Source: Pseudomonadota bacterium
GTDB lineage: Bacteria; Pseudomonadota; Gammaproteobacteria; JAKAQQ01
Direction of reading: 5' to 3'
Length of the DNA stretch: 50,232 nt
Assembly: GCA_021798115.1 (NCBI GenBank)
Contig: JAJZYM010000012.1
Span: 1-50,232 of the forward strand
In this document: piece after piece, positions 34,129 to 50,093 of the stretch
Layout of the letters: each line of letters opens with the position of its first letter
Numbering within the stretch: the first letter of the stretch is position 1
Made by a program: the position numbers and the translations under genes
Notes under the pieces: model-generated
Database searches by the model: none
Seen by the model: only the letters and a program-made list of their open reading frames with translations
What the model was told of the DNA's origin: nothing

Positions 34129-35964
34129 TCAAAGATCCCAGCGCAGACTCAGAAGGAGGGAGCGTCCCGCCGTCTGGTAGCCGTTTACCACAGTGTAGTC
34201 CACGTTGAACAGGTTGCCGATCCGGATGCCGAGTGCAAGGTGCGTCCCGATCGGCCAGCGTCCGTCGAGGTCCGTGAGGGCGTAGCCGGGATCGATCACC
34301 GAGGTGTAGGGCGAGTCGGGCCGTGGGCCAACGGCGAGAAAGTCGAGTCCGACCGTTCCTCCGGCCAGACGTCGGCCGAGAAGCAGCGAGGCGCTTCGTT
34401 CGGAACGCCGAGCGAGCACCGTCCCCGTTTCGAGATCGAGGGGCTGCTGGACGTCGATGCGGGCGAGGACGTTCCAGGCCCGATGGGCCCAGGCGAGACT
34501 CAAGCTCGCGCCTCGCGTCTGGGTGCGTCCGATGTTTTCGTTGATGCCTTCCGGGTGTGCAGCGCTTGGCCCGAGGTAAACGATGAGGTTGTCGATGCGG
34601 CTCAGGTAGAGATCGAGCCCGAGGCGTACCGTCGCGTCCAATCGTTGATGGGCGACGATCTCGAGGGTGTGCGAACTCTCGGGGGTGAGATTCGGGTTCC
34701 CGCCGTAGCCGTAGAGATCCTCGGCCGGAGGCGCGCGGAATCCGCTTCCCCATTCGACACCGAGACTTGTGCCGTCCGTCCAGAGGTAGCTGTCGGCGAG
34801 ACTCCAGGTCGGATGGCTGCCGAAGGTGCTGTAGTCGCTCAGTCTCCCGGTGACGATGAAGCGGTTCTGTCCGGTGGTCACGATGTCTTCCGCGTAGGGC
34901 GCGAGGACGCGGTACCCCTCGGCGTAACCGGTTCCGTAGACGAGTGAAGAGTCGTCCGTATGGTGAACGGCGAGACCGACGAGAAGCCTCTGCGCGGGCA
35001 GCCGGGTGAATCTGAGGCGGGCGTCCAGCCCCTCGCGACGGGTACGCGAGAAGTCGGGACGCTGGTTTTGGAGCAGGCGGTCCTCGTAGTCGCTCAACGT
35101 CACACGGGCGTGGAGCCCTGTGGCGACCGCAAGGCGCCCGCGCAGAAGGACCAGGCGATCGCGGTAGTTCTCGCTGCGTGGGGCACCGTCGTAATTGAGG
35201 TACCCGGTGGTGCCCCGCGATTGCCAGAGCCGGGCGACGAGGTTGCCGTGCGAGGAGGGCCGCCAGCGGGCGAAGGCGTCGAGGAGACTCGTCGTCGTGC
35301 CTTCCGCGAGCCCGCTTCCGACGAGGGGGGGGAAGCCACGAACGAGGATGCGTGAGAAATCGGCTCCGGCCGCGAAGCGTCGTCCCCCATCGGCGATTCC
35401 GAGACCGAGGGCGCGCGTGCCGTAGCTTCCGTCTGCCACCGAGACATGCGCGTGCCGACGATGGGCGTTGCCCCGCGTCACGATGTCGATGACCCCTCCG
35501 ATCCCGTCTGAGCCGTAGAGGCTCGAGGAGGGCCCTTCGACGATCTCGACGCGCGCGACGTCGGTGAGCGGGATGTCGGCGAGCGGCGCGAGGCCGAGGT
35601 TGCCGCCGTTCACCTCGACGCCGTCGATGAGCACGAGCGTCTGGCCGCTCGAGGCCCCCTGGAGAAAGACCGAGGCGGGCTGCCCGGGTCCACCCGTCTG
35701 TGCGACGTCGATCCCAGCGTAGAAGCGCAGGAGCTGGGTGAGATCGAGGGCACCGCTTTGGAGGATCTCGCGGCGGGTGATCACAATCACCGGGGCGGGG
35801 GTGTCGATGATGGCGAGTGGTGTCGCCGTCGGTGTCACAACGATCGGATCGAGCGTCGTGGTGGTGCCGCCGGCGCGGACGCGCGGGAACACTGTGAACG
35901 CGGTCAGGGCAAGGGCGAGGACAAGAATCCGGCAGATGCCGGCACGAGGGTCGGGTCGGGTCAT
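34129..35964 (-). CDS. btuB: TonB-dependent vitamin B12 receptor BtuB
   Basis: BtuB imports corrinoids across the outer membrane with energy from TonB. The 611-residue product has a signal peptide (hydrophobic core about residues 13-26), a TonB box DPIVVT (39-44), the plug domain with VLIDGVEVNGGNLG and VEIVEGPSSSLYGSDGIGG, and a beta-barrel ending in LLLSLRWDL. ATG 35964 is preceded by GAGG (35976-35973). An upstream in-frame extension runs through the riboswitch and is not coding. The cobalamin riboswitch upstream makes the B12 assignment firm. Confidence 0.93.
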   Translation of the reverse strand: MTRPDPRAGICRILVLALALTAFTVFPRVRAGGTTTTLDPIVVTPTATPLAIIDTPAPVIVITRREILQSGALDLTQLLRFYAGIDVAQTGGPGQPASVFLQGASSGQTLVLIDGVEVNGGNLGLAPLADIPLTDVARVEIVEGPSSSLYGSDGIGGVIDIVTRGNAHRRHAHVSVADGSYGTRALGLGIADGGRRFAAGADFSRILVRGFPPLVGSGLAEGTTTSLLDAFARWRPSSHGNLVARLWQSRGTTGYLNYDGAPRSENYRDRLVLLRGRLAVATGLHARVTLSDYEDRLLQNQRPDFSRTRREGLDARLRFTRLPAQRLLVGLAVHHTDDSSLVYGTGYAEGYRVLAPYAEDIVTTGQNRFIVTGRLSDYSTFGSHPTWSLADSYLWTDGTSLGVEWGSGFRAPPAEDLYGYGGNPNLTPESSHTLEIVAHQRLDATVRLGLDLYLSRIDNLIVYLGPSAAHPEGINENIGRTQTRGASLSLAWAHRAWNVLARIDVQQPLDLETGTVLARRSERSASLLLGRRLAGGTVGLDFLAVGPRPDSPYTSVIDPGYALTDLDGRWPIGTHLALGIRIGNLFNVDYTVVNGYQTAGRSLLLSLRWDL

Positions 35965-36094
35965 GGTTTGGGCCTCAAGCGTGTCCGCATCACCCGCGGA
36001 CGATGGTCGGTGGGACACGAAGAGGCGCACACGGGGAGGACGCCGCGAGGCGACCGCCCGCGGGCACCGCCCTCCGCGGCACCGCTTGGGTGAC

Positions 36095-36303
36095 GCCCAC
36101 GGCCGGTCTCCGGGCTCACGAGCCGGACCGGAGATTTCTCCGGTCCGTCCCGCCCGCCTTCCCACACGCATGCGTGCAGTGGCTTTGGGACGGGACGACA
36201 ACTCGCCTACCGTTGCGGGGGCAGCGCCGGACTTGCGTCTCCCCATCGGGGGAGGCGCGCACCGGACTTCCCGTGCCCGGGAACTCTCCCGGGCGCCGTG
36301 GGC
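36095..36303 (-). promoter_or_regulatory. Cobalamin (AdoCbl-type) riboswitch
   Basis: Read on the - strand, the leader contains the class landmarks in order: GGGAAGTCCGGTG (about 36276-36260), the core GCTGCCCCCGCAACGGTA, and the 3' B12-box GAGCCCGGAGACCGGCC ending near 36101. A closing P1 stem is visible: 36303-36295 (GCCCACGGC) pairs with 36103-36095 (GCCGTGGGC). The btuB start lies about 130 bases further on. No U-tract terminator was seen in that gap, so control may act on translation or through Rho. Confidence 0.92.
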
Positions 36304-36311
36304 ACGCCGCC

Positions 36312-36340
36312 ACTCTAAGCGACAAGCCTCCTGTGGTCAA
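36312..36340 (-). promoter_or_regulatory. Sigma70 promoter of the btuB leader
   Basis: On the - strand TTGACC (36340-36335) and TAGAGT (36317-36312) are separated by exactly 17 bp. Transcription would begin near 36305, immediately before the P1 stem of the riboswitch. Spacing and position make this a good prediction. Confidence 0.65.
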
Positions 36341-36362: not shown

Positions 36363-36406
36363 GGCCCTTGATCCGCAACATCCCTTGACGTTTCGCGTCG
36401 TTGCCC

Positions 36407-38824
36407 GTGCGCGTCTTCCGAATTCTTGCCGCCGTCTTTCTCATCCTCCTCGTTTTTGCGGGGGTGGGAGTTTTTTTTGTCGTCTCGACCCGGCCCCCTC
36501 TGAACGGCCGCCTCCGCGTCGTAGGGCTTCGCCGCCCGGTGCGCGTTGTCTTCCACCGCGGGGGGATCCCGACGGTGCACGCGGCCTCACTGCGGGACGC
36601 TTACTTCGCTGAGGGGTACCTCGAAGGGGCGGAGCGTTACTTCCAGATGGATCTCCTGCGGCGAAGCGCCGAGGGACGACTCGCGTCGCTTTTCGGGGCC
36701 GTGGCCCTCCCGGCGGACAGAGAGGCGGTTCGTTACGGATTTCGCCGCCTCGCGGAGCGCGTCTGGCGTCGGGATTCGCCGCGCACCCGTCGCCTCCTCG
36801 CCGCCTACGCGGCGGGCGTGAACGCGGCACTCCGCCACACCCCCACCCGTCCTCTCGCCTACGGGATCCTCGGACGGTCCCCTCGACCATGGAAGCCCTG
36901 GCAGAGCTATCTGGTCGTCGCCTACATGTACCGCTATCTTGAGGGCCCCTCCGACCGTCTCGCCCGTGCGTTGGGCGCGCTGCGCGCGGCTTTTCCGCAC
37001 CCTCTTTATCGCTTTCTTGCCGCCCCCGGAAACCGTTGGGACGCCCCCGACCAGGGCGCTCCGCTCAGGCTTCCCCCGATCCCGGGTCCGCAGGTCTTCT
37101 CCTTCCACGCGGCCGTGCCGCCGCCTCCACCGGGGGCCGTTCGTTACCTCCCTCCCGCGCGCGCGGCGAGCAACTCCTTTGCGGTGGCCGGGCGACTCAC
37201 TCGCTCCGGGCATGCTCTTCTGGCCAACGATCCGCATCTTCCTCTCGATCTTCCGCCGATCTGGTACCGCCTCGCGCTTGTCTACCGCACGCGGCGGGGA
37301 CGAAGAGTGCGTGCGGTGGGGGTCTCTCTTCCGGGTGTGCCCGGCGTCACCATCGGCACGAACGGATCTGTCGCCTGGAGCATGACCGATGCCATGGTGG
37401 CCGACGAGATGCTTCTTCGCGTGCCTCTCGTGCCGGCTCACCCCGGGGAGTATCGAACGAGGAGCGGAGTCCGACGTTTTCGGGTGGTCGTGCACCGCAT
37501 CCCCGTGCGCGGTGGCCAGACAGTGCTCGTACGTGTGCGGACGACACTTTGGGGGCCGGTCATCGCCAGAGCCGGCGCGGGTCATGTCCTTGTGGCCGTC
37601 TGGGTCGGTGAGAATCCTGCGGCGTACCACGACGTGCGGACGCTCGCCGCTCTCCTTCGCGCCCGGCATCTCGCATCGGCCCTCGCCGCCGGAACCCGTC
37701 TTGGCGTGCCGGCGGAGAATTTTGTCGTCGCAACCCGAGGGGGGCACATCGGCTGGACGGTCGCCGGTCCCGTGCTCGCCCGTCGCGGACGCTGCGGCCT
37801 TCTCCCACGCCCCTACCGGGCGGTGGGAGGAAGCTGCCGGCCGGCCGGGATCCTTGCCGCCGACCGCCATCCGCGCATCGTCGATCCGTCCACGGGATTC
37901 CTGTGGACGGCCAACCAGAGGGTGGTCGGGGGTCGCGCTCTCGCGCTTCTCGGCGAAGGGGGAGCCGGTTACGACCTCGGTGCGCGGGCGCGGCAGATCC
38001 GTGCCGATCTCGAGGCTCTTCGTCCTCCGCTGAGCGTGGGCGATCTCCTTGCGATCGAGCGCGACGACCGGGCGCTCTATCTCGCGCACTGGCGCCGTCT
38101 CTTTTTGCGCGTTCTCAAGCGCCCCCTCGCTCCGGCGCCCGAACAGGTGGCCGTCGTCCGTGCGCTCCGCACATGGGGCGGGCGGGCTGAGCGTGGATCG
38201 GTGGGGTTTCGTCTCGTCCGCGATTTCCGGCGCCGCGTCTTTCGCCTCGTGCTGGCCCCCTTCACGGCGATCGTTCGCCGCCGCGATCCCCACTTCCGTT
38301 GGCCCGATCCCCCGATGCTCGAGGGACCGGTCTGGGCGCTCGTGACCCAACGACCATCCTGGCTCCTTGCCCCTGGTGTGTCGGGTTGGGGGGCACTTCT
38401 CCGCGCGGCCGCACGCGACGTCGTCCTCCGGGCTTGGCGTGGGGGGGCGCGGGGATTCCGCCGTTTCACCTGGGGGGGCTGGAATGTTCTTCGTCTCGGA
38501 GGTCCCCTCGGGCGGGCGGGAGGAGTCCTCGCCTGGCTCTATGATCTTCCCCCGAGGGGAGTCTCCGGGGACGAGAACATGCCGCGGGTGGTGCTGCGCA
38601 ACTTCGGTGCCAGCATGCGCTTCGGCCTCGCGGTGGGTGAGGACGACTCGGGGTACCTTGAGCTCCCCGGGGGGGAAAGTGAAGACCCCCTGAGCCGATA
38701 CTACGCCGACGAGTTGCCGGCCTGGCTCGACGGCCTGCGCGCACCGCTCCTCCCTCCGCCCGACGGCCGCCGTCTTCTTCTGCTGCCTTCCCGCCGTGGG
38801 CAGGACGTGCGGCGAGAACGATGA
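36407..38824 (+). CDS. Penicillin acylase family N-terminal nucleophile hydrolase
   Basis: This family matures by self-cleavage and hydrolyses amides such as beta-lactam side chains or acyl-homoserine lactones. The 805-residue precursor has an N-terminal membrane anchor or signal segment (about residues 4-26), an alpha-chain region with FAEGYLEGAERYFQMDLLRR and EGRLASLFG, and the beta-chain nucleophile Ser at about 255 in ASNSFAVAGRLT, followed by LLANDPHLPL and a conserved oxyanion Asn region FLWTANQRVVGG. No Shine-Dalgarno sequence distinguishes GTG 36407 from TTG 36401. The substrate cannot be told from sequence. It is coupled to the downstream MFS gene. Confidence 0.88.
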   Translation: MRVFRILAAVFLILLVFAGVGVFFVVSTRPPLNGRLRVVGLRRPVRVVFHRGGIPTVHAASLRDAYFAEGYLEGAERYFQMDLLRRSAEGRLASLFGAVALPADREAVRYGFRRLAERVWRRDSPRTRRLLAAYAAGVNAALRHTPTRPLAYGILGRSPRPWKPWQSYLVVAYMYRYLEGPSDRLARALGALRAAFPHPLYRFLAAPGNRWDAPDQGAPLRLPPIPGPQVFSFHAAVPPPPPGAVRYLPPARAASNSFAVAGRLTRSGHALLANDPHLPLDLPPIWYRLALVYRTRRGRRVRAVGVSLPGVPGVTIGTNGSVAWSMTDAMVADEMLLRVPLVPAHPGEYRTRSGVRRFRVVVHRIPVRGGQTVLVRVRTTLWGPVIARAGAGHVLVAVWVGENPAAYHDVRTLAALLRARHLASALAAGTRLGVPAENFVVATRGGHIGWTVAGPVLARRGRCGLLPRPYRAVGGSCRPAGILAADRHPRIVDPSTGFLWTANQRVVGGRALALLGEGGAGYDLGARARQIRADLEALRPPLSVGDLLAIERDDRALYLAHWRRLFLRVLKRPLAPAPEQVAVVRALRTWGGRAERGSVGFRLVRDFRRRVFRLVLAPFTAIVRRRDPHFRWPDPPMLEGPVWALVTQRPSWLLAPGVSGWGALLRAAARDVVLRAWRGGARGFRRFTWGGWNVLRLGGPLGRAGGVLAWLYDLPPRGVSGDENMPRVVLRNFGASMRFGLAVGEDDSGYLELPGGESEDPLSRYYADELPAWLDGLRAPLLPPPDGRRLLLLPSRRGQDVRRER

Positions 38825-41059: not shown

Positions 41060-42046
41060 TCAGGCCAGCGTGCCCCCGCAGGAGCTTCCGCGCCCGGCGG
41101 TGCATCCGAAGCAATGGCGCCGCAACGCGATCGGGCGGGGACCGATCATGCCGAAATCGTCGATGCTCCAGAGGTCCTCACCCCCAGGGAGAGGGGTTTC
41201 GGTCATCTGATGGAAATCGCAGTCGTAGAGTTTCCCGTCCCACGAGACGGAGAGGGTTGTTCGGCACATGAGGTGGGCGACCGTCGCCGGGTTGAAATGG
41301 CTTTCGAGAAGGGCCTCGTAGGTCTCGAGACGCCCTTCGCGGACGAGTGCGTGACGGAAGCGATGGATCGGCAGATTCGTCATGACGAGCAGATGATCGA
41401 AGCGCACGCCCAGGCGGCCGAGTTCCTCGCGGTAGCGCGGCTCGAGTGTCTCGGGAGCCGGCGGCAGTGAGGGACCAAGAGGGTTGTAGACGAGATCGAG
41501 GACAAGTCCGTCGCCCGCTCCGTAGCCGAGGCGGTTGAGCCGGCGCAGAGCCTCGAGGCTGCGGGCGAAGACCCCCTGCCCGCGCTGCCGCTCGACGTTT
41601 TCGGCTGTGTAGCAGGGGAGGGAGGCGACGACGCGAACACCGTGGCGGGCGAGGAACTCGGCGGTGTCCTCCTGGCCGGGTTCGCAGAGCACCGTCAGGT
41701 TCGAGCGGTCGATGACCTCGCGTCCGAGGGCGCGGGCGGTCTTTGTGAGAAGGCGGAAAGAGGTGTTGAGCTCGGGTGCGCCGCCGGTGATGTCCACCGT
41801 GTGGATGAACGGCGAGCGTTCGAGGAGGGCGAGGATCCTTTCCGCCGTGGCGGGCGCCATCCGTTCTGGCCTCTTCGGTCCCGCGTCCACATGACAGTGC
41901 TGGCAGGCCTGATTGCAGTACTTGCCGAGGTTGATCTGGAGAATCTCGGGAGGAGCGGTGCGCTCCAGCCGCAACTCGTGGCGTGTCAGGGCGTCGTGGA
42001 AACGACAGCCGTCGGGTTCGGGGACCAGGGCGGGCAGTGCGTTCAT
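41060..42046 (-). CDS. arsS: Radical SAM protein, ArsS-like
   Basis: The 328-residue protein belongs to the radical SAM/Cys-rich family that includes ArsS, which attaches the deoxyadenosyl group of SAM to dimethylarsenite on the way to arsenosugars. The 4Fe-4S ligands are C44, C48 and C51 in YCNQACQHCHVDAGP. ITGGAPELN and the C-terminal cysteines in MCRTTLSVSWDGKLYDCDF and HCFGCTAGRGSSCGG match the family's auxiliary-cluster region. ATG 42046 overlaps the stop of the preceding flavoprotein gene. No arsM or arsenic regulator is adjacent, so a different substrate is possible. Confidence 0.82.
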   Translation of the reverse strand: MNALPALVPEPDGCRFHDALTRHELRLERTAPPEILQINLGKYCNQACQHCHVDAGPKRPERMAPATAERILALLERSPFIHTVDITGGAPELNTSFRLLTKTARALGREVIDRSNLTVLCEPGQEDTAEFLARHGVRVVASLPCYTAENVERQRGQGVFARSLEALRRLNRLGYGAGDGLVLDLVYNPLGPSLPPAPETLEPRYREELGRLGVRFDHLLVMTNLPIHRFRHALVREGRLETYEALLESHFNPATVAHLMCRTTLSVSWDGKLYDCDFHQMTETPLPGGEDLWSIDDFGMIGPRPIALRRHCFGCTAGRGSSCGGTLA

Positions 42047-43521
42047 GGGGGGTCTCGCGGTCGGAGTGTGGGGCATCTGGGAAGAGGGAGCCGGCCGAGG
42101 ACGACGAGGCTCTGGGCCACCCGTGCGGGGAAGCTCCCGTCCCAGCGCTCGTCGAAGAGACGGGTGGCCCCGCGGGTGAGGATCTCCCCGTAGGTCGGGT
42201 AGGCGCGGAAGGTGGTGAGGAGGCGTTTGGCTTCGCCCCCATCGTCGATCGTGCGGACGAGTTCGGCGGCGAGTTCGCCCGCGTGCGGGCAGGCGAGGAC
42301 CGCCCCGCAAATCCGCCCGCGGCGGTCGAGGTCGAGGCGGAGAAATCCCCGCGTCCGCTCCTCGACGAGCGCCCGGTCCACCTCGCCGAGATCGATCTTC
42401 AGGGAACGGAACGCCTCTACGGGAGTGGGGGCGCCGACCAGGGCAATCTCAGGATCTGTGTAAACGACGCGCGACTGAGTCCCCTTCGCCCAGCGGAACC
42501 GAAGCCACGGACCGAGAAGGGCGTTCGCCGCGGCACACCACCCCTGACGTCCGGCCACGGCGGTGGAGAAAGGGGGACCCGTCGCGTCCCCGCAGGCGTA
42601 GAGAGCCCGTCGGTTCGTGCGCAAATAAGGATCGACCCGCAGGTAGCCGCGGGCGTCACGAGCGACGCCGAGTGCGTCGAGGCCCGCCGGTCCAGGGGCG
42701 GGGCGGCGACCCAGGGCGAGGATGAGGAAGTCCGTCGTCCAGCTCCTTGGTCCCCCGTCCGCCGAAGTGGCCACGACGCGCACCTCTGTGCCGCTCCTTT
42801 CGAGCCGTTCTACACGCACGCCGGTTTCCACCGCGACGCCTTCCTCCGAAAGGATCTCCGCAAGCAGGTGGCCGGCTTCCGCATCCTCGTCCGGGAGGAG
42901 CCCCTCCCGCGCCTCAAGAAGTCGAACCTCGTGACCGAGGCGGACGAAGGCCTGCGCGAGCTCGCACCCACTCGGTCCACCGCCCACGACCGTGAGGCGA
43001 TGGGGCAGAACTTCCCGGGACCAGAGCGTGTCGGTGTCCGCCCACGGAACGTCGGCGAGACCCGGCCACTCGGGATGATGGGGCCGGGAGCCTGTGGCGA
43101 GGATGAGCCGGCGGGCACGGAGGACATCGCCGCCGACTTCGACCGTGTCCGGGGCCCCAAAGCGGGCCTCACCGAAACGGACATCCACGCCGAGTGCGCG
43201 GTAGCGGGCGGGATCGTCGTGGGGGGCGACGGCACGGACGGCGCGGCGCGCCGCATCGAGACCACGGGTCGATCCGGGGTCAGTGGTCCGCAGCGTTCGC
43301 GCTTTTTCGCGTTCTGCGGCATGCAGAAGGGCCTTGCTGGGAACGCAACCGGTATGCAGGCACTCGCCGCCGAGTGCCTGGTCCTCGACGAGGACGACGC
43401 GGGCTCCGAGGCGTCGTGCGGTTTGGGCGGCGACGAGCCCCGCCGCCCCGCCGCCGACGACGAGGAGATCACAGACGGTGCGGGCGCGGGCCAACGAGCG
43501 GGCTGGGGCAGGAACTTCCAC
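42043..43521 (-). CDS. Mercuric-reductase-like FAD disulfide oxidoreductase
   Basis: This 492-residue flavoprotein belongs to the dihydrolipoamide dehydrogenase/mercuric reductase group. It has the FAD motif VVGGGAAGLVAAQ, the redox pair C54-C59 in GGECLHTGCVPSK, the NAD(P)H motif VVGGGPSGCELAQ, the second FAD motif ALYACGDATG, and a dimerisation domain. The usual C-terminal HPTxxE is AYPTYGE, and there is no C-terminal vicinal Cys pair or heavy-metal N-domain, so it is unlikely to be a true mercuric reductase. The start is GTG 43521, chosen just before the FAD fold. It is coupled to the ArsS-like gene. Confidence 0.85.
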   Translation of the reverse strand: MEVPAPARSLARARTVCDLLVVGGGAAGLVAAQTARRLGARVVLVEDQALGGECLHTGCVPSKALLHAAEREKARTLRTTDPGSTRGLDAARRAVRAVAPHDDPARYRALGVDVRFGEARFGAPDTVEVGGDVLRARRLILATGSRPHHPEWPGLADVPWADTDTLWSREVLPHRLTVVGGGPSGCELAQAFVRLGHEVRLLEAREGLLPDEDAEAGHLLAEILSEEGVAVETGVRVERLERSGTEVRVVATSADGGPRSWTTDFLILALGRRPAPGPAGLDALGVARDARGYLRVDPYLRTNRRALYACGDATGPPFSTAVAGRQGWCAAANALLGPWLRFRWAKGTQSRVVYTDPEIALVGAPTPVEAFRSLKIDLGEVDRALVEERTRGFLRLDLDRRGRICGAVLACPHAGELAAELVRTIDDGGEAKRLLTTFRAYPTYGEILTRGATRLFDERWDGSFPARVAQSLVVLGRLPLPRCPTLRPRDPP

Positions 43522-43583
43522 GACCCTACAATAACAGCGCTGCTGTCTTGCCGGCACCGCGTGAGGAACGTCCCCAAGATCCC

Positions 43584-45365
43584 ATGAGAACTTCCTCTTC
43601 CGCCGGGGTTCCCGCCGCGTCGCCACCGCTCAGACTTCTCGCCTGGGCGTTCCTCGCTGCAGCGCTGGCGTTGTCTCTCTCCGTCGATTACGCCGACAGC
43701 GTCGGTCTTTTTGGTCTCACACTGCTCGGGATTTTCTGGGGCTTTCGCGATGGCTTTGTGCGCGGCTGCGGACGGGGTGAGCGTCTTCTTCTCGCCGTCT
43801 TTGCCCTCGTCCCTGCCGCCGCGCTCCTGAGCGACGAGCTCGGACGCTTCACGCGCCAGGAGTTCCGTTTCGCCGGCCGCGATTTGCGTTTCCTTCTGGC
43901 TGTCGCCGCCTACGGGGCGCTCCGCCGCCTGCGCCCGAGAGCCCGCGGGCTGGGTCTCGTTCTGGCCGGTGGGGCTGTCCTCGCACTCGTGGTGGGTCTC
44001 TTCGAGCACTTCGGGATGGGGGCGGCGCGCGCGTCGGGGGCGACGGGCGTGGCCATTGTGTTTGGCGATCTCGCGGTTCTTTCCGGCGTGGCTGGGGCCA
44101 CGGGCCTACTCCTCGGTGGGCGTCGGCCCGGGAAAGGGATCCAGGCGTTGGCCGTTTTGGCTCTCGCCGCCGGCCTCGGGGCGGCGGTGCTCTCCGATTC
44201 GCGTGGTTCGTGGCTCGGCTTCATAGTCCTCGCGGCGGTTTTCTACGTCGCCCTGGGTGCGCGTGGTCGCTACGGCCGTCGTTTCCTCCTGGTTGTCGTC
44301 GCTTTCGTCTGTGTGAGTGGGGCTTTCCTCGCCGCAACGGGGTTCTCCCGATCTCTCTCACCCCTGAGAAGGTTTGAGCACGTTGGGCGGGATCTCTCTC
44401 TCGAGGCCACTTACCTCCGTGTGCCCCCGTCGCTCCGGCGACGCTGGGCCTTCACCCGCTGTCTGGCCTCGCCGAGAGCACTGGCGTTCTACCAAAAGGC
44501 CGTCCGCATCCTCCCCCCCCAGAAGGGGGACCGCGGCTGGATCCTCGTTGTGCCTCCCCGCGGGCTTCCGGCGACCTGCCGGCGCGCGGGCGGAGCGACT
44601 TTCGTGCTTGCGGTCCCGTGGAGCCGTGACGTGACGACCTTTGTCTTTCCGACCGCGCTCCTCGATGCCGGTCCGATGACATTGGCCTTCTGGGCGAGGG
44701 GTCGCTTTCGCGTGCGCACGTGCAACACCTGTCGGTGGCACGATCTCGCCTCGACCCGGTTTCGCCGCTTCCTCGTCCGTGGCCGTGTGCTCCGCTCGAG
44801 CGTGCTTTTCGTGACACTTCGCCCGGGCCGGCAGGTGTGGTTCGTGCCGGCACAGCTCCGTTCCGGTGAGTACAGCGCGGCCCCGCTTCGCAATTCCGTG
44901 GACGAGCGCTTCGAAATGTGGCACGCGGCACTCCTCATGGCCCGCCGTCACCCCTGGTGGGGGGTGGGTTTTGGGGGGTTCGATGACGCCGCCCACCGCC
45001 TCGTCCGCGCCGGTTTCACCCCGCCCTTCGTCGCCGCCTACGAACACCCCCACAACGACCTTCTGGATGCCCTTGCGAGCGGGGGGGTGGTCGGGCTTGC
45101 GGTCCAGCTCCTTCTTTACCTCATCCCGCTCTTGATCTTCGTGCCCGCCGTCCGTGATCCCGACCCCGAGCGCCGCGCCCTCGGCTGGATCGGGGTCCTC
45201 GGAGTGACGGGTTTTGTCGTCTTCGGGACGACGGAGGCGATGTTCGTCCACTCGCTCGTCATCGGTTGGTACGCGCTCTACGTCGGGGCGGTGGCGGCCG
45301 CGCTGTCTCCTTCGGTGGTTCACCGCCCACCGGGGCGCGAGTTGCTACAATCGCGCAGTGACTGA
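43584..45365 (+). CDS. O-antigen ligase/polymerase family protein with periplasmic insertion
   Basis: This 593-residue polytopic protein has about eight hydrophobic helices before residue 252 and several after 485. The Wzy_C/WaaL loop signature is at about 437-505: FEMWHAALLMARRHPWWGVG, then YEHPHNDLLDALASGGVVGL. Such proteins polymerise or ligate lipid-linked glycans on the periplasmic side. Between the preceding helix and this signature lies a soluble segment of about 180 residues (260-435) that is rich in alternating hydrophobic residues and aromatics and has cysteines in RTCNTCRW, an unusual insertion. ATG 43584 starts the glycan operon. Whether it is a ligase or polymerase cannot be told. 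Confidence 0.8.
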   Translation: MRTSSSAGVPAASPPLRLLAWAFLAAALALSLSVDYADSVGLFGLTLLGIFWGFRDGFVRGCGRGERLLLAVFALVPAAALLSDELGRFTRQEFRFAGRDLRFLLAVAAYGALRRLRPRARGLGLVLAGGAVLALVVGLFEHFGMGAARASGATGVAIVFGDLAVLSGVAGATGLLLGGRRPGKGIQALAVLALAAGLGAAVLSDSRGSWLGFIVLAAVFYVALGARGRYGRRFLLVVVAFVCVSGAFLAATGFSRSLSPLRRFEHVGRDLSLEATYLRVPPSLRRRWAFTRCLASPRALAFYQKAVRILPPQKGDRGWILVVPPRGLPATCRRAGGATFVLAVPWSRDVTTFVFPTALLDAGPMTLAFWARGRFRVRTCNTCRWHDLASTRFRRFLVRGRVLRSSVLFVTLRPGRQVWFVPAQLRSGEYSAAPLRNSVDERFEMWHAALLMARRHPWWGVGFGGFDDAAHRLVRAGFTPPFVAAYEHPHNDLLDALASGGVVGLAVQLLLYLIPLLIFVPAVRDPDPERRALGWIGVLGVTGFVVFGTTEAMFVHSLVIGWYALYVGAVAAALSPSVVHRPPGRELLQSRSD

Positions 45366-46416
45366 GGACGACTTCCCCCGAACCTACTGTGTGACCGGCG
45401 CCTGCGGGAGTGTGGGCGCGGCTCTGGTACGCGCGCTTCTCGCCCGGAGCGACGATCCGCACCGGCGGGTGATCGGCCTCGACCACGATGAAAATGGGGT
45501 CTTCCGCCTGGAGGAAGAGTGGAGCGGCGATCCACGGGCCTCGTTTTTCGTCGCCGACGTGCGCGACCGGGATACGCTGCGCGCACGGTTCCGCGGCGTC
45601 CACACCGTCTTTCACACCGCCGCGCTCAAGCATGTCTACCAGTGTGAAAAGGCGCCGTTCGAAGCCGTGCAGACCAACATCCTCGGAACCGTCCACGTGC
45701 TCGAAGCCGCCCGCGCCGCCGGGGTCGGGAGGCTGGTGGCGACCAGCACCGACAAGGCGGTGAATCCCTCGAGCGTCATGGGCACGAGCAAGCTGATGGC
45801 CGAACGGCTCGTCACCGCCGCCAGCGCTCATGCGGGGCTGGACGTGGGGGGGCCGATCTTTGTCTCGACCCGCTTCGGCAACGTGCTCGGGTCGAACGGT
45901 TCGGTGCTCGAGATCTTCCGTCGCCAAATTTTCGCGGGGGGGGATCTCACGCTCACCGACGAGCGCATGACGCGCTTCGTCATGCGTCCCTCGGAGGCGA
46001 TCCGTCTTCTGGTCGAGACGGCGGATCTCGCCCGCGGCGGCGAAGTGTTCATCACCAAGATGGCCGCCGTGCGTGTCGTCGATCTCGCCCGCGCCGCTGT
46101 CCGTCGTTGGGCTCCCCGTGCCGGACGCCGCGCGGAGGACGTCCCCATCCGTATCGTCGGTGCCCGCCCGGGGGAGAAATTCCACGAGGAACTCGTGAGC
46201 GAGGAAGAAGGTCGGCGGGTCGTCGAGCTCGATCGCTACTACGTGGTTCTTCCGGCGTTCCGGCCCGTCTACCGCGGGATCGACTACCGTTACCCGGGGG
46301 CGCGCCCCGGGGCGCTCGAGCGCGGCTACAGTTCCGCGCGGGTCGACCATCTTGGGGACGAGGCCATCGACGCTCTTCTCGAGGACCTGGCCCAGGAGGG
46401 GATCCTATGCGCGTGA
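45358..46416 (+). CDS. CapD/WbpM-type sugar-nucleotide 4,6-dehydratase/epimerase
   Basis: This 352-residue short-chain dehydrogenase of the polysaccharide-biosynthesis (Polysacc_synt_2) group probably acts on a UDP-N-acetylhexosamine. The nucleotide-binding motif TGACGSVG has G14, G17 and G20. STDKAVNPSSVMGTSK carries the active-site Thr-Asp-Lys and an MxxxK (M141, K145) in place of the usual YxxxK, as in WbpM/CapD-type enzymes. STRFGNVLGSNGSV and ITKMAAVRVVDLA are further signatures. It is soluble, lacking the membrane half of WbpM. GTG 45358 overlaps the previous stop, and its end overlaps sqdB. Confidence 0.86.
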   Translation: MTEDDFPRTYCVTGACGSVGAALVRALLARSDDPHRRVIGLDHDENGVFRLEEEWSGDPRASFFVADVRDRDTLRARFRGVHTVFHTAALKHVYQCEKAPFEAVQTNILGTVHVLEAARAAGVGRLVATSTDKAVNPSSVMGTSKLMAERLVTAASAHAGLDVGGPIFVSTRFGNVLGSNGSVLEIFRRQIFAGGDLTLTDERMTRFVMRPSEAIRLLVETADLARGGEVFITKMAAVRVVDLARAAVRRWAPRAGRRAEDVPIRIVGARPGEKFHEELVSEEEGRRVVELDRYYVVLPAFRPVYRGIDYRYPGARPGALERGYSSARVDHLGDEAIDALLEDLAQEGILCA

Positions 46417-47564
46417 TGATCTGGGGGGGGGACGGTTATCTCGGTTGGCCGACGGCGATGTACCTGGCCCGCGCCGGCCACGAGGTGGTGGCCGTTGACA
46501 GCTACCTCAAACGCGATCTCGTGTGCGCCACGGGCGCCGAACCCCTTGTCCCTGTCCCCCCACTCGCGGAACGCGCGCGGCTTTTCCGCGCCGCGGGTGA
46601 TGCGGAGATCCGCGTCGAGATCACCGATCTTCGCGAACCCGAGGCGGCCCATCGGCTTCTCCGTGAGTATCAGCCGGAGGCGGTCGTGCATTATGCCGAG
46701 CAGCCCTCGGCCCCGTACTCGATGCGCGGCGAGGACGAGGCGCGTCTCACGCTTCTCAACAATCTCGGCGTGACCTTCAATCTCATCCAGGCCGTGCTCC
46801 ACCACGCGCCCGACTGCGCCATCGTCAAGCTCGGGACGATGGGCGAGTACGGAACCCCGAACATCGCGATCGAGGAGGGGTGGCTCACCGTGACCCACGA
46901 GGGCCGGAGCGAGACCTTCCTCTATCCCCGCCAGGCTTCGAGTCTCTACCACACGACGAAAATCCTCGACACGGATCTCCTTTGGTTCTACGTGCGCAGC
47001 GCCGGACTGCGCGTGACCGATCTCATGCAGGGTCCCGTCTACGGGTTCGACGCGGGGGTGTCTGACGATGCGCGGCTCCTGACGGCTTTTCACTACGACG
47101 AGCTCTTCGGGACGGTTCTCAACCGCTTCCTCGTTCAAGCCCTGGCGGGACATCCCCTCACGGTCTACGGCCGCGGTGAGCAGCGGCGTGGGTATCTTGA
47201 TCTGCGCGACACGTTGGCTTGTGTGAGTCTGGCTCTCGCACATCCCCCGCCGCGTGGCGAGATGCGGATCTACAACCAATTCACCGAGATTTTTTCCGTC
47301 AATGAACTGGCCGCGCGCGTCATCTCGGCCGCGCGCACTCTCCGGATGGAGGCCACGGTGGCCCACGAACCCAACCCGCGCTTCGAGGCCGAAGAGCATT
47401 TTTACGAAGTGCGCCACCGGGCTCTTCTCGAACTTGGGCTCCAACCCCATCTCTTGACGGAGGAAGTGTTGGTGGGCATGCTCGAACGCCTGCGCCCCCA
47501 CGCCGCCCGCGTCCGCCCGGAGCTCTTCCGCCCGCGGGTGCGTTGGGGGAGACCACGGTCATGA
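46407..47564 (+). CDS. sqdB: UDP-sulfoquinovose synthase homologue (SQD1/SqdB)
   Basis: SQD1/SqdB converts UDP-glucose and sulfite to UDP-sulfoquinovose. The 385-residue product matches plant SQD1 along its length: GGDGYLGWPTA at the start, EQPSAPYSM, KLGTMGEYGTPNIAIEEGW with catalytic T144, YPRQASSLYHTTK with Y181 and K185 and the neighbouring His, LTVYGRGEQRRGYLDLRDT, YNQFTEIFSVNELA and NPRFEAEEHFYEV. Start ATG 46407 has AGGAGG at 46393-46398. The context is a polysaccharide operon, and no sulfolipid synthase was recognised, so the product may enter a glycan. A related sugar epimerase activity is the alternative. Confidence 0.87.
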   Translation: MRVMIWGGDGYLGWPTAMYLARAGHEVVAVDSYLKRDLVCATGAEPLVPVPPLAERARLFRAAGDAEIRVEITDLREPEAAHRLLREYQPEAVVHYAEQPSAPYSMRGEDEARLTLLNNLGVTFNLIQAVLHHAPDCAIVKLGTMGEYGTPNIAIEEGWLTVTHEGRSETFLYPRQASSLYHTTKILDTDLLWFYVRSAGLRVTDLMQGPVYGFDAGVSDDARLLTAFHYDELFGTVLNRFLVQALAGHPLTVYGRGEQRRGYLDLRDTLACVSLALAHPPPRGEMRIYNQFTEIFSVNELAARVISAARTLRMEATVAHEPNPRFEAEEHFYEVRHRALLELGLQPHLLTEEVLVGMLERLRPHAARVRPELFRPRVRWGRPRS

Positions 47565-48877
47565 CGGGAAGGGTGATCGACCGGATTCGTCCACGGATCT
47601 ACGCGGGGCTTTGGACCCTCGTTTTGGTGGCCCTGTGTCTTCCGAGCAATCTCCCCGCCCTCGATCTCTGGCACGGCCACACATTCTTCCTGCCGCTCGC
47701 GGTGGGCGTGCTCGTCCTCGCCCTCCTCGTGCTCGAAGGCCGGCGCCTGGGGATTCTCCCCCGCACTTTGTTGATCACGTACGTGGCGGTGGGGGTGGCC
47801 CTCGTGTGGGTCGTCCTCGGCGTTCTGATCCACAAGGGGCTCACCCCTCCTCCCTCGTGGTCGCTCGCGGCGGCCGACGCCGTACGGGCGGTCTTCGTCG
47901 TTGCCGGGATCGAGGTTCTGCGTCGTCTCGACAAGCCGCTTCAACGCACCTTCGCTGTCCTCGTCCCGCTTCTGACGCTGATTGCCTTCGCGGTGGTGTT
48001 CCGGGTCGCGGCCCTGGGGATCAGCGTGCATGCGTACGATAGCTACGCGAGCGGTCGACGCGTCGTGCTTCAGCGTGTCTTCAGCGGTATCGGGGATCCC
48101 AATTTCACCTCGTTGGCCCTCGTCCTCGGGGTGGGCGGAGCCCTGGGGCTCGCTCTCACCCTGCGTCGCAGGAGCCTGCGTATACTCGCGTTTCTGGCCG
48201 CCGTTCTTCTCGCGGTGGGCGTCGTCCGGACCGTCTCGCTCGGCGGGGCGATCGGTCTTCTGGCTCTCCTCGCGCTCCTCGTGTTGGGCGCACGCGGTCT
48301 CGCTCGGCGGGTGCCCAAGCAGCTCGTCCCCATCGTCACCGGGTTGTGTCTCGTGCTCGCGATCTTGGGCGGCGGAACGTATTGGGTCCGTCTTCGTTCC
48401 GAGATCCACCGCGGCCTTGCGGACCCTATCGCACTTGGGGACTACCGTCTCGCGCTTCTCATCGGCGGCGCGCGCATGGTGGCTGCCCATCCGCTCTTCG
48501 GTGTGGGTCCGGGACGGGTGTCGAGCCAGATGACACGCTACGAACCGGCCCGGGGGAGCCCCACTGTCCCGCAGGGCTGCCACAACCTCCTCTTCGAACT
48601 GGGCGACGAGTCGGGGCTCGTTCCGGCGGTGGTCGTGACCGTGCTTCTGGGTGTATTGATCACGGGGCTTCTGCGCCGGTGGCGCGCGCGGTTGCGCGCC
48701 GGCACACCGGAGCCGTGGGGCGTGGTGATCACCGCAACACTCCTTGCGACACTCCTTCAGGCGATGGCGTTGCCGGCGCAACGCAGTACCATCCTGTGGC
48801 TTGTGGTGGTTCTTGCCGCAGCGCATCTCGTCTCGGACCCGAAGCCTGAGGAGGCCGCGGCTTTGCCGGCCGCTTGA
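47561..48877 (+). CDS. O-antigen ligase/polymerase family membrane protein
   Basis: This 438-residue protein has about ten to twelve hydrophobic helices and a conventional Wzy_C/WaaL periplasmic loop: RLALLIGGARMVAAHPLFGVG, then PTVPQGCHNLLFELGDESGL. It starts at ATG 47561, overlapping the sqdB stop as ATGA, with GGGGGAG at 47545-47551. Unlike the 43584 protein it has no large insertion. With two such proteins in one operon, one may be the polymerase and the other the ligase. Assignment between the two roles is open. Confidence 0.82.
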   Translation: MTGRVIDRIRPRIYAGLWTLVLVALCLPSNLPALDLWHGHTFFLPLAVGVLVLALLVLEGRRLGILPRTLLITYVAVGVALVWVVLGVLIHKGLTPPPSWSLAAADAVRAVFVVAGIEVLRRLDKPLQRTFAVLVPLLTLIAFAVVFRVAALGISVHAYDSYASGRRVVLQRVFSGIGDPNFTSLALVLGVGGALGLALTLRRRSLRILAFLAAVLLAVGVVRTVSLGGAIGLLALLALLVLGARGLARRVPKQLVPIVTGLCLVLAILGGGTYWVRLRSEIHRGLADPIALGDYRLALLIGGARMVAAHPLFGVGPGRVSSQMTRYEPARGSPTVPQGCHNLLFELGDESGLVPAVVVTVLLGVLITGLLRRWRARLRAGTPEPWGVVITATLLATLLQAMALPAQRSTILWLVVVLAAAHLVSDPKPEEAAALPAA

Positions 48878-48881
48878 GCGT

Positions 48882-50093
48882 TTGCGGGTCCTCGTCCTCA
48901 GCGAGTCTTATCCGACGCCGGAGCACCCGGGGCGGGCGGTGTTCCTCGAGGAGCAGTTCCGGGCCCTCGCTGCGGCAGGGGTCTCCCCGGTGGTGCTCTT
49001 CCCCCGCCCCTTCTGGCCCGGGGTCGATTCCCGACGCCTCGAACCCCGGGCGCGCCGCTTCGAGGGTCGAGCCTGGACTCCGCGGGCGGACGATCCCCCG
49101 GTTCAGCGTCCAGACTACTTCTACGTGCCCCGCCTGCGTTCTGTGCGTGCCTGGAGTCTCGGGCGTCTCTGCGAACGTGAGATCGAGCGCATCGGGCCCG
49201 ATCTCCTGCACGTCCATTGGTTTGGTCCCGCCGCCACCGCCGGCGCCGCCGTGGCAAGGCGGACCGGCCTCCCCTTGGTGATTACGGCCCACGCGGGAGA
49301 TGTCTACCGCGAGCTCGACGTCCCTCGGCTGCGCCGATCGGCACTCCGGGCGGGGGCGACCGCGTCACGGATCATTGCTGTGGCTCCGCACCTTGCGGCC
49401 CGGCTAGGGTCGCTCCCGGGGCTCGCTTCCAAGATCCGCGTCGTCCCGAACGGCGTCGAGGAGAGCCGTTTTCGGCCTGTTCCGCGTGAGGAGGCCCGCA
49501 GGCGGTTGGGGTGGCCGACGGTCGGGCGCGTCGTTCTCTACGCCGGGCAGCTCGTGGCCGCCAAGGGTGTCCTCGATCTCATCGAGGCGTTTTTGGCGCT
49601 GACAGCCAACGGAATGGACCGGGGCAGTCTGCGCCTCGTGATCGCCGGGACGGGGCCGCTTACGGAACGGATCGGCGCGCGGCTTCGGGACGCTCTCGCT
49701 TGCGGAACCGCGCAGTTCTGCGGATGGCAGGACCACGAACGGATGGCCGACCTTCTGAACGCTGCGGACGTCTTTGTGCTACCGAGCTACGGTGAAGGCA
49801 ATCCGGTCACCGTCCTCGAGAGCCTTTGCTGCGGGACGCCGGTCGTCGGGACGGCGATTCCCGCGCTTGCCGAAATCTTGAATCCCCCGCGCGACGGCGC
49901 GCTCGTCCCGCCGGGGCGGCCACAGGAGTTGATGGAGGCCCTGCGTGGGCTCCTCACGGACCCGCCCGATCGGAACCGTATCGCCGCCGCCGCCCACGCC
50001 CGCTACGGTTGGACGAGTGTGGCGCGCCGGATCGTGGACGTTTACGCCGAGGCTTGCGAGTCCCCCCCTGGAGCCGCTCGGGACGGGAGATGA
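48882..50093 (+). CDS. GT4 family glycosyltransferase
   Basis: This 403-residue retaining GT-B glycosyltransferase probably transfers a sugar from a nucleotide donor during surface-glycan assembly. The N-terminal domain opens LRVLVLSESYPTPEHPGRAV. The C-terminal domain has VVPNGVEESRF, LYAGQLVAAKGVLDLIEAF, FCGWQDHERMADLLNAADVFVLPS and the donor-binding EGNPVTVLESLCCGTPVV (about 303-320). TTG 48882 is used, 4 bases after the previous stop; no good Shine-Dalgarno sequence or ATG is present. A sulfoquinovosyltransferase (SqdX/SQD2, also GT4) role is conceivable because of sqdB but is not shown by sequence. Confidence 0.87.
   Translation: MRVLVLSESYPTPEHPGRAVFLEEQFRALAAAGVSPVVLFPRPFWPGVDSRRLEPRARRFEGRAWTPRADDPPVQRPDYFYVPRLRSVRAWSLGRLCEREIERIGPDLLHVHWFGPAATAGAAVARRTGLPLVITAHAGDVYRELDVPRLRRSALRAGATASRIIAVAPHLAARLGSLPGLASKIRVVPNGVEESRFRPVPREEARRRLGWPTVGRVVLYAGQLVAAKGVLDLIEAFLALTANGMDRGSLRLVIAGTGPLTERIGARLRDALACGTAQFCGWQDHERMADLLNAADVFVLPSYGEGNPVTVLESLCCGTPVVGTAIPALAEILNPPRDGALVPPGRPQELMEALRGLLTDPPDRNRIAAAAHARYGWTSVARRIVDVYAEACESPPGAARDGR

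Follow-up and report, generated by a model that had tools for sequence, protein, structure and literature searches.

A probable translationally coupled surface-polysaccharide operon with a CapD/SQD1-like enzyme pair and a putative role in the synthesis of C6-sulfonated sugars

Organization of the operon

The window, which is the whole stretch of DNA analysed, is a complete contig of 50232 bases from a metagenome-assembled genome of 1.88 Mb. Direct reading of the open reading frames located five tightly packed genes on the + strand at positions 43584-50093, coding for a Wzy_C protein, a short CapD-type SDR, an SQD1-like enzyme, a second Wzy_C protein and a GT4 glycosyltransferase (Table 1). The first four genes overlap successively by 8 bases (first Wzy_C/CapD), 10 bases (CapD/SQD1-like) and 4 bases (SQD1-like/second Wzy_C, ATGA), and the GT4 gene starts after a gap of 4 bases. 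The sequence-only reading had described the SQD1-like gene as overlapped on both sides by CapD-type and ligase/polymerase-type genes and followed by a GT4 gene, and this arrangement was confirmed. The five genes look like a complete operon, judging by a sister contig from within the genus, which continues past the GT4 gene into an FG-GAP gene and then into rpsL-rpsG-fusA.

Table 1. Genes of the operon and other features of the window.
Feature	Position	Strand	Remarks
Wzy_C protein 1, O-antigen ligase/polymerase-type membrane protein	43584-45365	+	593 aa; PF04932, 9.5e-18
Short CapD-type SDR, UDP-GlcNAc 4,6- or 5,6-dehydratase-like	45358 (GTG)-46416	+	352 aa, without membrane domain; PF02719 (Polysacc_synt_2), 4e-83
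SQD1/SqdB-like enzyme, core-P subfamily	46407-47564	+	385 aa; phmmer to Arabidopsis SQD1 and residue alignment
Wzy_C protein 2	47561-48877	+	438 aa; PF04932, 4e-12
GT4 glycosyltransferase	48882 (TTG)-50093	+	403 aa; PF00534, 5.8e-33
MerA/dihydrolipoyl dehydrogenase-like flavoenzyme	42043-43626	-	in head-to-head orientation to Wzy_C gene 1; the GTG start as listed overlaps 43584, true start probably nearer 43480
Arsenosugar biosynthesis radical SAM protein ArsS	41060-42118	-	NCBIfam, 395.7 bits (cut-off 300)
Penicillin amidase family protein	36401-38824	+	very weak match to acylase PvdQ
Cobalamin riboswitch	36084-36315	-	75 bits; at the 5' end of the TonB-dependent receptor gene
TonB-dependent receptor	34129-36246	-	

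Pfam searches confirmed each family of the operon, the SQD1-like protein being assigned only to the general epimerase family, and detected no sulfur-specific gene among the five. With two Wzy_C genes and one GT4 gene, the cluster combines the polymerase/ligase and glycosyltransferase functions of a Wzx/Wzy-type locus. The genome also codes for three flippase-family proteins (PF01943), none of them within the window. The top NCBIfam match of the GT4 protein is TuaC (NF047684; 144 bits against a cut-off of 550); the proteins of solved structure related to it are GT4 enzymes as well. A separate rml/WbpM locus is present elsewhere in the genome, which contains a single SQD1-like gene and a PAPS_reduct-family protein that is a possible source of sulfite. 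In the sister metagenome-assembled genome YF3.bin4 the SQD1-like locus occurs twice, in different versions on different contigs (L027 and L028), whose SQD1-like proteins are 100% and 95% identical to that of the window; perhaps two strains were binned together.

The proline-type SQD1 subfamily and its CapD partner

The SQD1-like protein is homologous to Arabidopsis SQD1 over its full length, far beyond chance (phmmer 2.6e-107 over residues 2-381), with 45% identity to this protein and 40% to Sinorhizobium SqdB. The residues at the positions of interest are H95, Y96, P100, T144, M145, E147, Y148, Y181, H182, K185 and P210, so that the Thr/Tyr/Lys triad, Met145, Tyr148 and His95, by which a UDP-sulfoquinovose synthase was recognized, are all present. 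The sequence-only reading had credited the protein with all catalytic motifs (T144, Y181, K185) and had named it a UDP-sulfoquinovose synthase. The three residues are indeed where they had been placed; however, the Arg of the motif EQRSAP is replaced by Pro100, and the name itself stands only as far as homology to SQD1 goes, since the protein belongs to a subfamily that lacks an Arg essential in Agl3 and is tied to a dedicated CapD. In the alignment, Arg occupies position 100 in Arabidopsis SQD1, in Agl3 and in 23 Arg-type bacterial SqdB loci. In Agl3, where this Arg is R101 (the mutagenesis primers read AEQ-R-SAP), the R101A variant is inactive while T144A, altered in the supposed catalytic Thr, is still active (PMC4388408). 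Residue lists therefore need care. The NF041015 model was dropped as a membership test because Sinorhizobium SqdB (332 bits) falls, like the SQD1-like protein (399.7 bits), below its cut-off of 575 bits; of 14 control genomes, 1 scored above this cut-off.

Pro100 occurs together with Tyr96 and Pro210 in all 41 sequences of a group, called core-P, that was defined by Pro100 plus Pro210. As aligned, these three residues mark a distinct bacterial subfamily present in at least two phyla, further members coming from the phylum of L024, labelled Thermodesulfobacteriota. In a maximum-likelihood tree of 46 rows, the bacterial Pro100 proteins form one clade (support 99/94) that adjoins plant SQD1 and lies apart from Sinorhizobium-type SqdB. 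Pro100 alone was abandoned as a marker, since it is also present, without a CapD gene, in five basal bacterial proteins that lack Pro210 (L056, L120, L121, L124 and L125) and in one from a haloarchaeon (L045). Two Rhizobium/Agrobacterium plasmid proteins (L044 and L046; 32-35% identity) retain the Arg; their genes sit among glycosyltransferase and methyltransferase genes, and they form another group, possibly with a role outside sulfolipid synthesis.

A short CapD gene lies within 1.5 kb of the core-P gene in 35 of 40 loci, and beside or near it in 37 when L052 (two genes away) and L122 (about 1.8 kb) are added. None of the 28 other SQD1/SqdB loci (23 Arg-type and five basal) has a CapD neighbour (Fisher 2e-14, a value to be read with the caveat that related loci are not phylogenetically independent). 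The linkage also holds in the reverse direction: among 395 genomes, 17 of the 18 close CapD relatives (matches at E 1e-85 or better) have a core-P gene next to them or no more than 2 kb away, and scores drop sharply from the linked CapDs to the next unlinked ones (295 to 243 bits). The remaining one (L131, contig C155) has no SQD1-like gene in the stretch examined; G681, the genome that carries it, has another copy near a core-P gene.

The linked CapDs, which share a conserved DK..NP..VMG motif, form their own clade (support 92/98), separate from the PseB, FnlA, Pen and WbpM types. The CapD of the window has the PF02719 fold and the [ST]DK active-site motif, its version reading STDK...VMGTSK. 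The catalytic Tyr of YxxxK is Met in this clade, as in the FnlA and PglF types. Among solved structures, the best match to the CapD of the window is 6bwc, which is Pen, a UDP-GlcNAc 5,6-dehydratase (PMC8987622). Since the linkage holds both ways and the linked CapDs form a separate clade, the core of the operon is a conserved two-enzyme cassette, CapD plus SQD1-like, located within surface-glycan loci and not a sulfolipid operon. The link could nevertheless reflect no more than the side-by-side synthesis of two sugars that belong to one repeat.

The predicted product and competing explanations

The genes neighbouring the SQD1-like relatives code for GT2, GT4, Bac_transf (sugar-phosphate transferase), DegT, NeuB, Epimerase_2 (UDP-GlcNAc 2-epimerase) and FkbM proteins. 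Loci from several distant genomes (L080, L081, L083 and L084) have NeuB near their Pro-type SQD1-like gene, two of them (L081 and L084) together with UDP-GlcNAc 2-epimerase. We are confident that the operon of the window serves a surface glycan. Judged from sequence, the synthesis of a C6-sulfonated sugar would be the likeliest role of its SQD1-like enzyme. Our confidence is about even for the full reading, in which the CapD and Pro-type SQD1-like pair is the core of a translationally coupled surface-polysaccharide operon and a C6-sulfonated UDP-sugar the most likely product, and slightly better than even for the SQD1-like protein being a sulfite-using enzyme of some kind. It would oxidize a UDP-hexose at C4 with its bound NAD, then remove water across C5-C6 and add sulfite at C6, yielding a UDP-sugar sulfonated at C6. 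CapD would provide either the substrate of this enzyme or a second sugar of the same repeat, and the GT4 would add a sugar to the unit under assembly. Of the two Wzy_C proteins, one would act as polymerase and the other as ligase.

The replacement of Arg by Pro at the position where R101A inactivates Agl3 (PMC4388408) is a difficulty, since UDP-sulfoquinovose synthesis or the use of sulfite could thereby be lost. The foremost alternative, though unlikely, is that the protein is an ordinary UDP-sulfoquinovose synthase feeding the surface glycan, CapD separately making another sugar of the repeat such as a 6-deoxy-HexNAc. The change could be compensated, for instance by the coupled replacement of Phe by Tyr at position 96 (Tyr96 accompanies Pro100 in 41 of 41 core-P sequences), and the other active-site positions probed in Agl3, an enzyme which itself already feeds glycans, are kept. 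The 45% identity to SQD1 and the position of the clade next to plant SQD1 also argue for such an enzyme. However, besides the R101A result, the nearly obligate link with a single CapD clade, which holds in both directions, exceeds what the supply of two unrelated sugars would need.

It is somewhat less probable that the enzyme makes no use of sulfite and that, with the SQD1 fold kept, it is a C4-oxidizing dehydratase or epimerase producing a non-sulfonated rare sugar together with CapD. Related SDRs have switched reaction, and both the loss of the Arg and the lack of a sulfur gene in the operon are consistent with such a switch, but the SQD1-specific positions TMG(E/V)Y and YH..K are kept across the 41 core-P sequences.

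Of much the same or slightly lower standing is a sequential route, in which CapD would turn UDP-GlcNAc into either the 5,6-ene or the 4-keto-6-deoxy derivative, to which the Pro-type enzyme, its sugar pocket opened, would add sulfite at C6 to give UDP-6-deoxy-6-sulfo-HexNAc. A shared route is chemically sensible because Pen is a UDP-GlcNAc 5,6-dehydratase (PMC8987622) and SQD1/Agl3 chemistry passes through a 5,6-ene (PMC4388408). Moreover, position 100 appears to match the first wall of the nucleotide-sugar pocket of SDRs (Gly102 in WbpP, ESHVD in RmlB, Lys in CapD), and the wall residues of WbpP and RmlB count among those that set specificity for acetylated sugars. The near-obligate pairing of the two genes would also be accounted for. 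On the other hand, the Tyr of Pen is replaced by Met in CapD, the tree groups Pen with other CapDs and not with the linked clade, and searches of open-licence papers did not turn up UDP-6-deoxy-6-sulfo-HexNAc.

Although cyanobacterial SqdX is also a GT4 enzyme, synthesis of the sulfolipid SQDG, with GT4 as the SQDG synthase, is very improbable and was rejected as the main reading, in line with the preference of the sequence-only reading for a surface-glycan context: the operon has two Wzy_C genes, its GT4 scores best against TuaC, Sinorhizobium SqdD has no match in the genome (in a search run without a positive control) and the relatives lie in polysaccharide loci.

Relation to known systems

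SqdB genes found in bacteria that are not photosynthetic are generally taken for sulfolipid genes. The present analysis describes a large bacterial SQD1-like subfamily that is associated with polysaccharide loci and with a single partner enzyme, and that lacks a residue essential in an archaeal relative. If its product is sulfonated, bacteria would possess a surface sugar that is permanently acidic, and organosulfonate would have a source that has gone unrecorded; if it is not, the UDP-sulfoquinovose synthase annotations of the core-P subfamily are wrong. Should the joint route with CapD be true, a dedicated two-enzyme pathway from UDP-GlcNAc and sulfite to a sulfonated amino-sugar nucleotide would exist in at least two bacterial phyla. 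In searches of open-licence papers we found no description of the CapD-linked Pro subfamily and nothing to the point on sqdB in surface-polysaccharide contexts or on CapD together with UDP-sulfoquinovose synthase.

Sulfoquinovose in cell-surface glycans is not new as an idea, being known in archaea through Agl3. It is established in the surface N-glycans of Sulfolobus (PMC4388408; PMC12890257), and UDP-sulfoquinovose synthase homologues have already been listed in non-photosynthetic bacteria (PMC4388408). The sulfofucose glycan of Thermoplasma acidophilum, whose biosynthesis is reported as unknown, offers a parallel in that the surface of this acidophile carries a sugar sulfonated at C6, although it is an N-glycan and the sugar has the galacto configuration (PMC12421959). 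Agl3 of Sulfolobus acidocaldarius is an SQD1-family enzyme feeding a surface glycan, the role predicted for the protein of the window, and shares E147 and Y148 with that protein, whereas it has the essential Arg and acts in an archaeal N-glycan pathway for which the accessible parts of the report describe no CapD partner (PMC4388408).

The UDP-GlcNAc dehydratases Pen, FnlA, PseB and PglF belong to the same superfamily as the window's CapD and share its [ST]DK motif, but the linked clade is separate from each of them and reads VMGTSK where the Pen and PseB types have Tyr. Finally, Arabidopsis SQD1 and SqdB resemble the SQD1-like protein in fold, length, the Thr/Tyr/Lys triad, Met145, Tyr148 and His182. 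They differ from it at three positions, where the SQD1-like protein has Pro100 in place of Arg, Tyr96 and Pro210, and in their genetic surroundings: SqdB is accompanied by SqdD or found in a lipid context, whereas the SQD1-like gene is linked to CapD within glycan loci.
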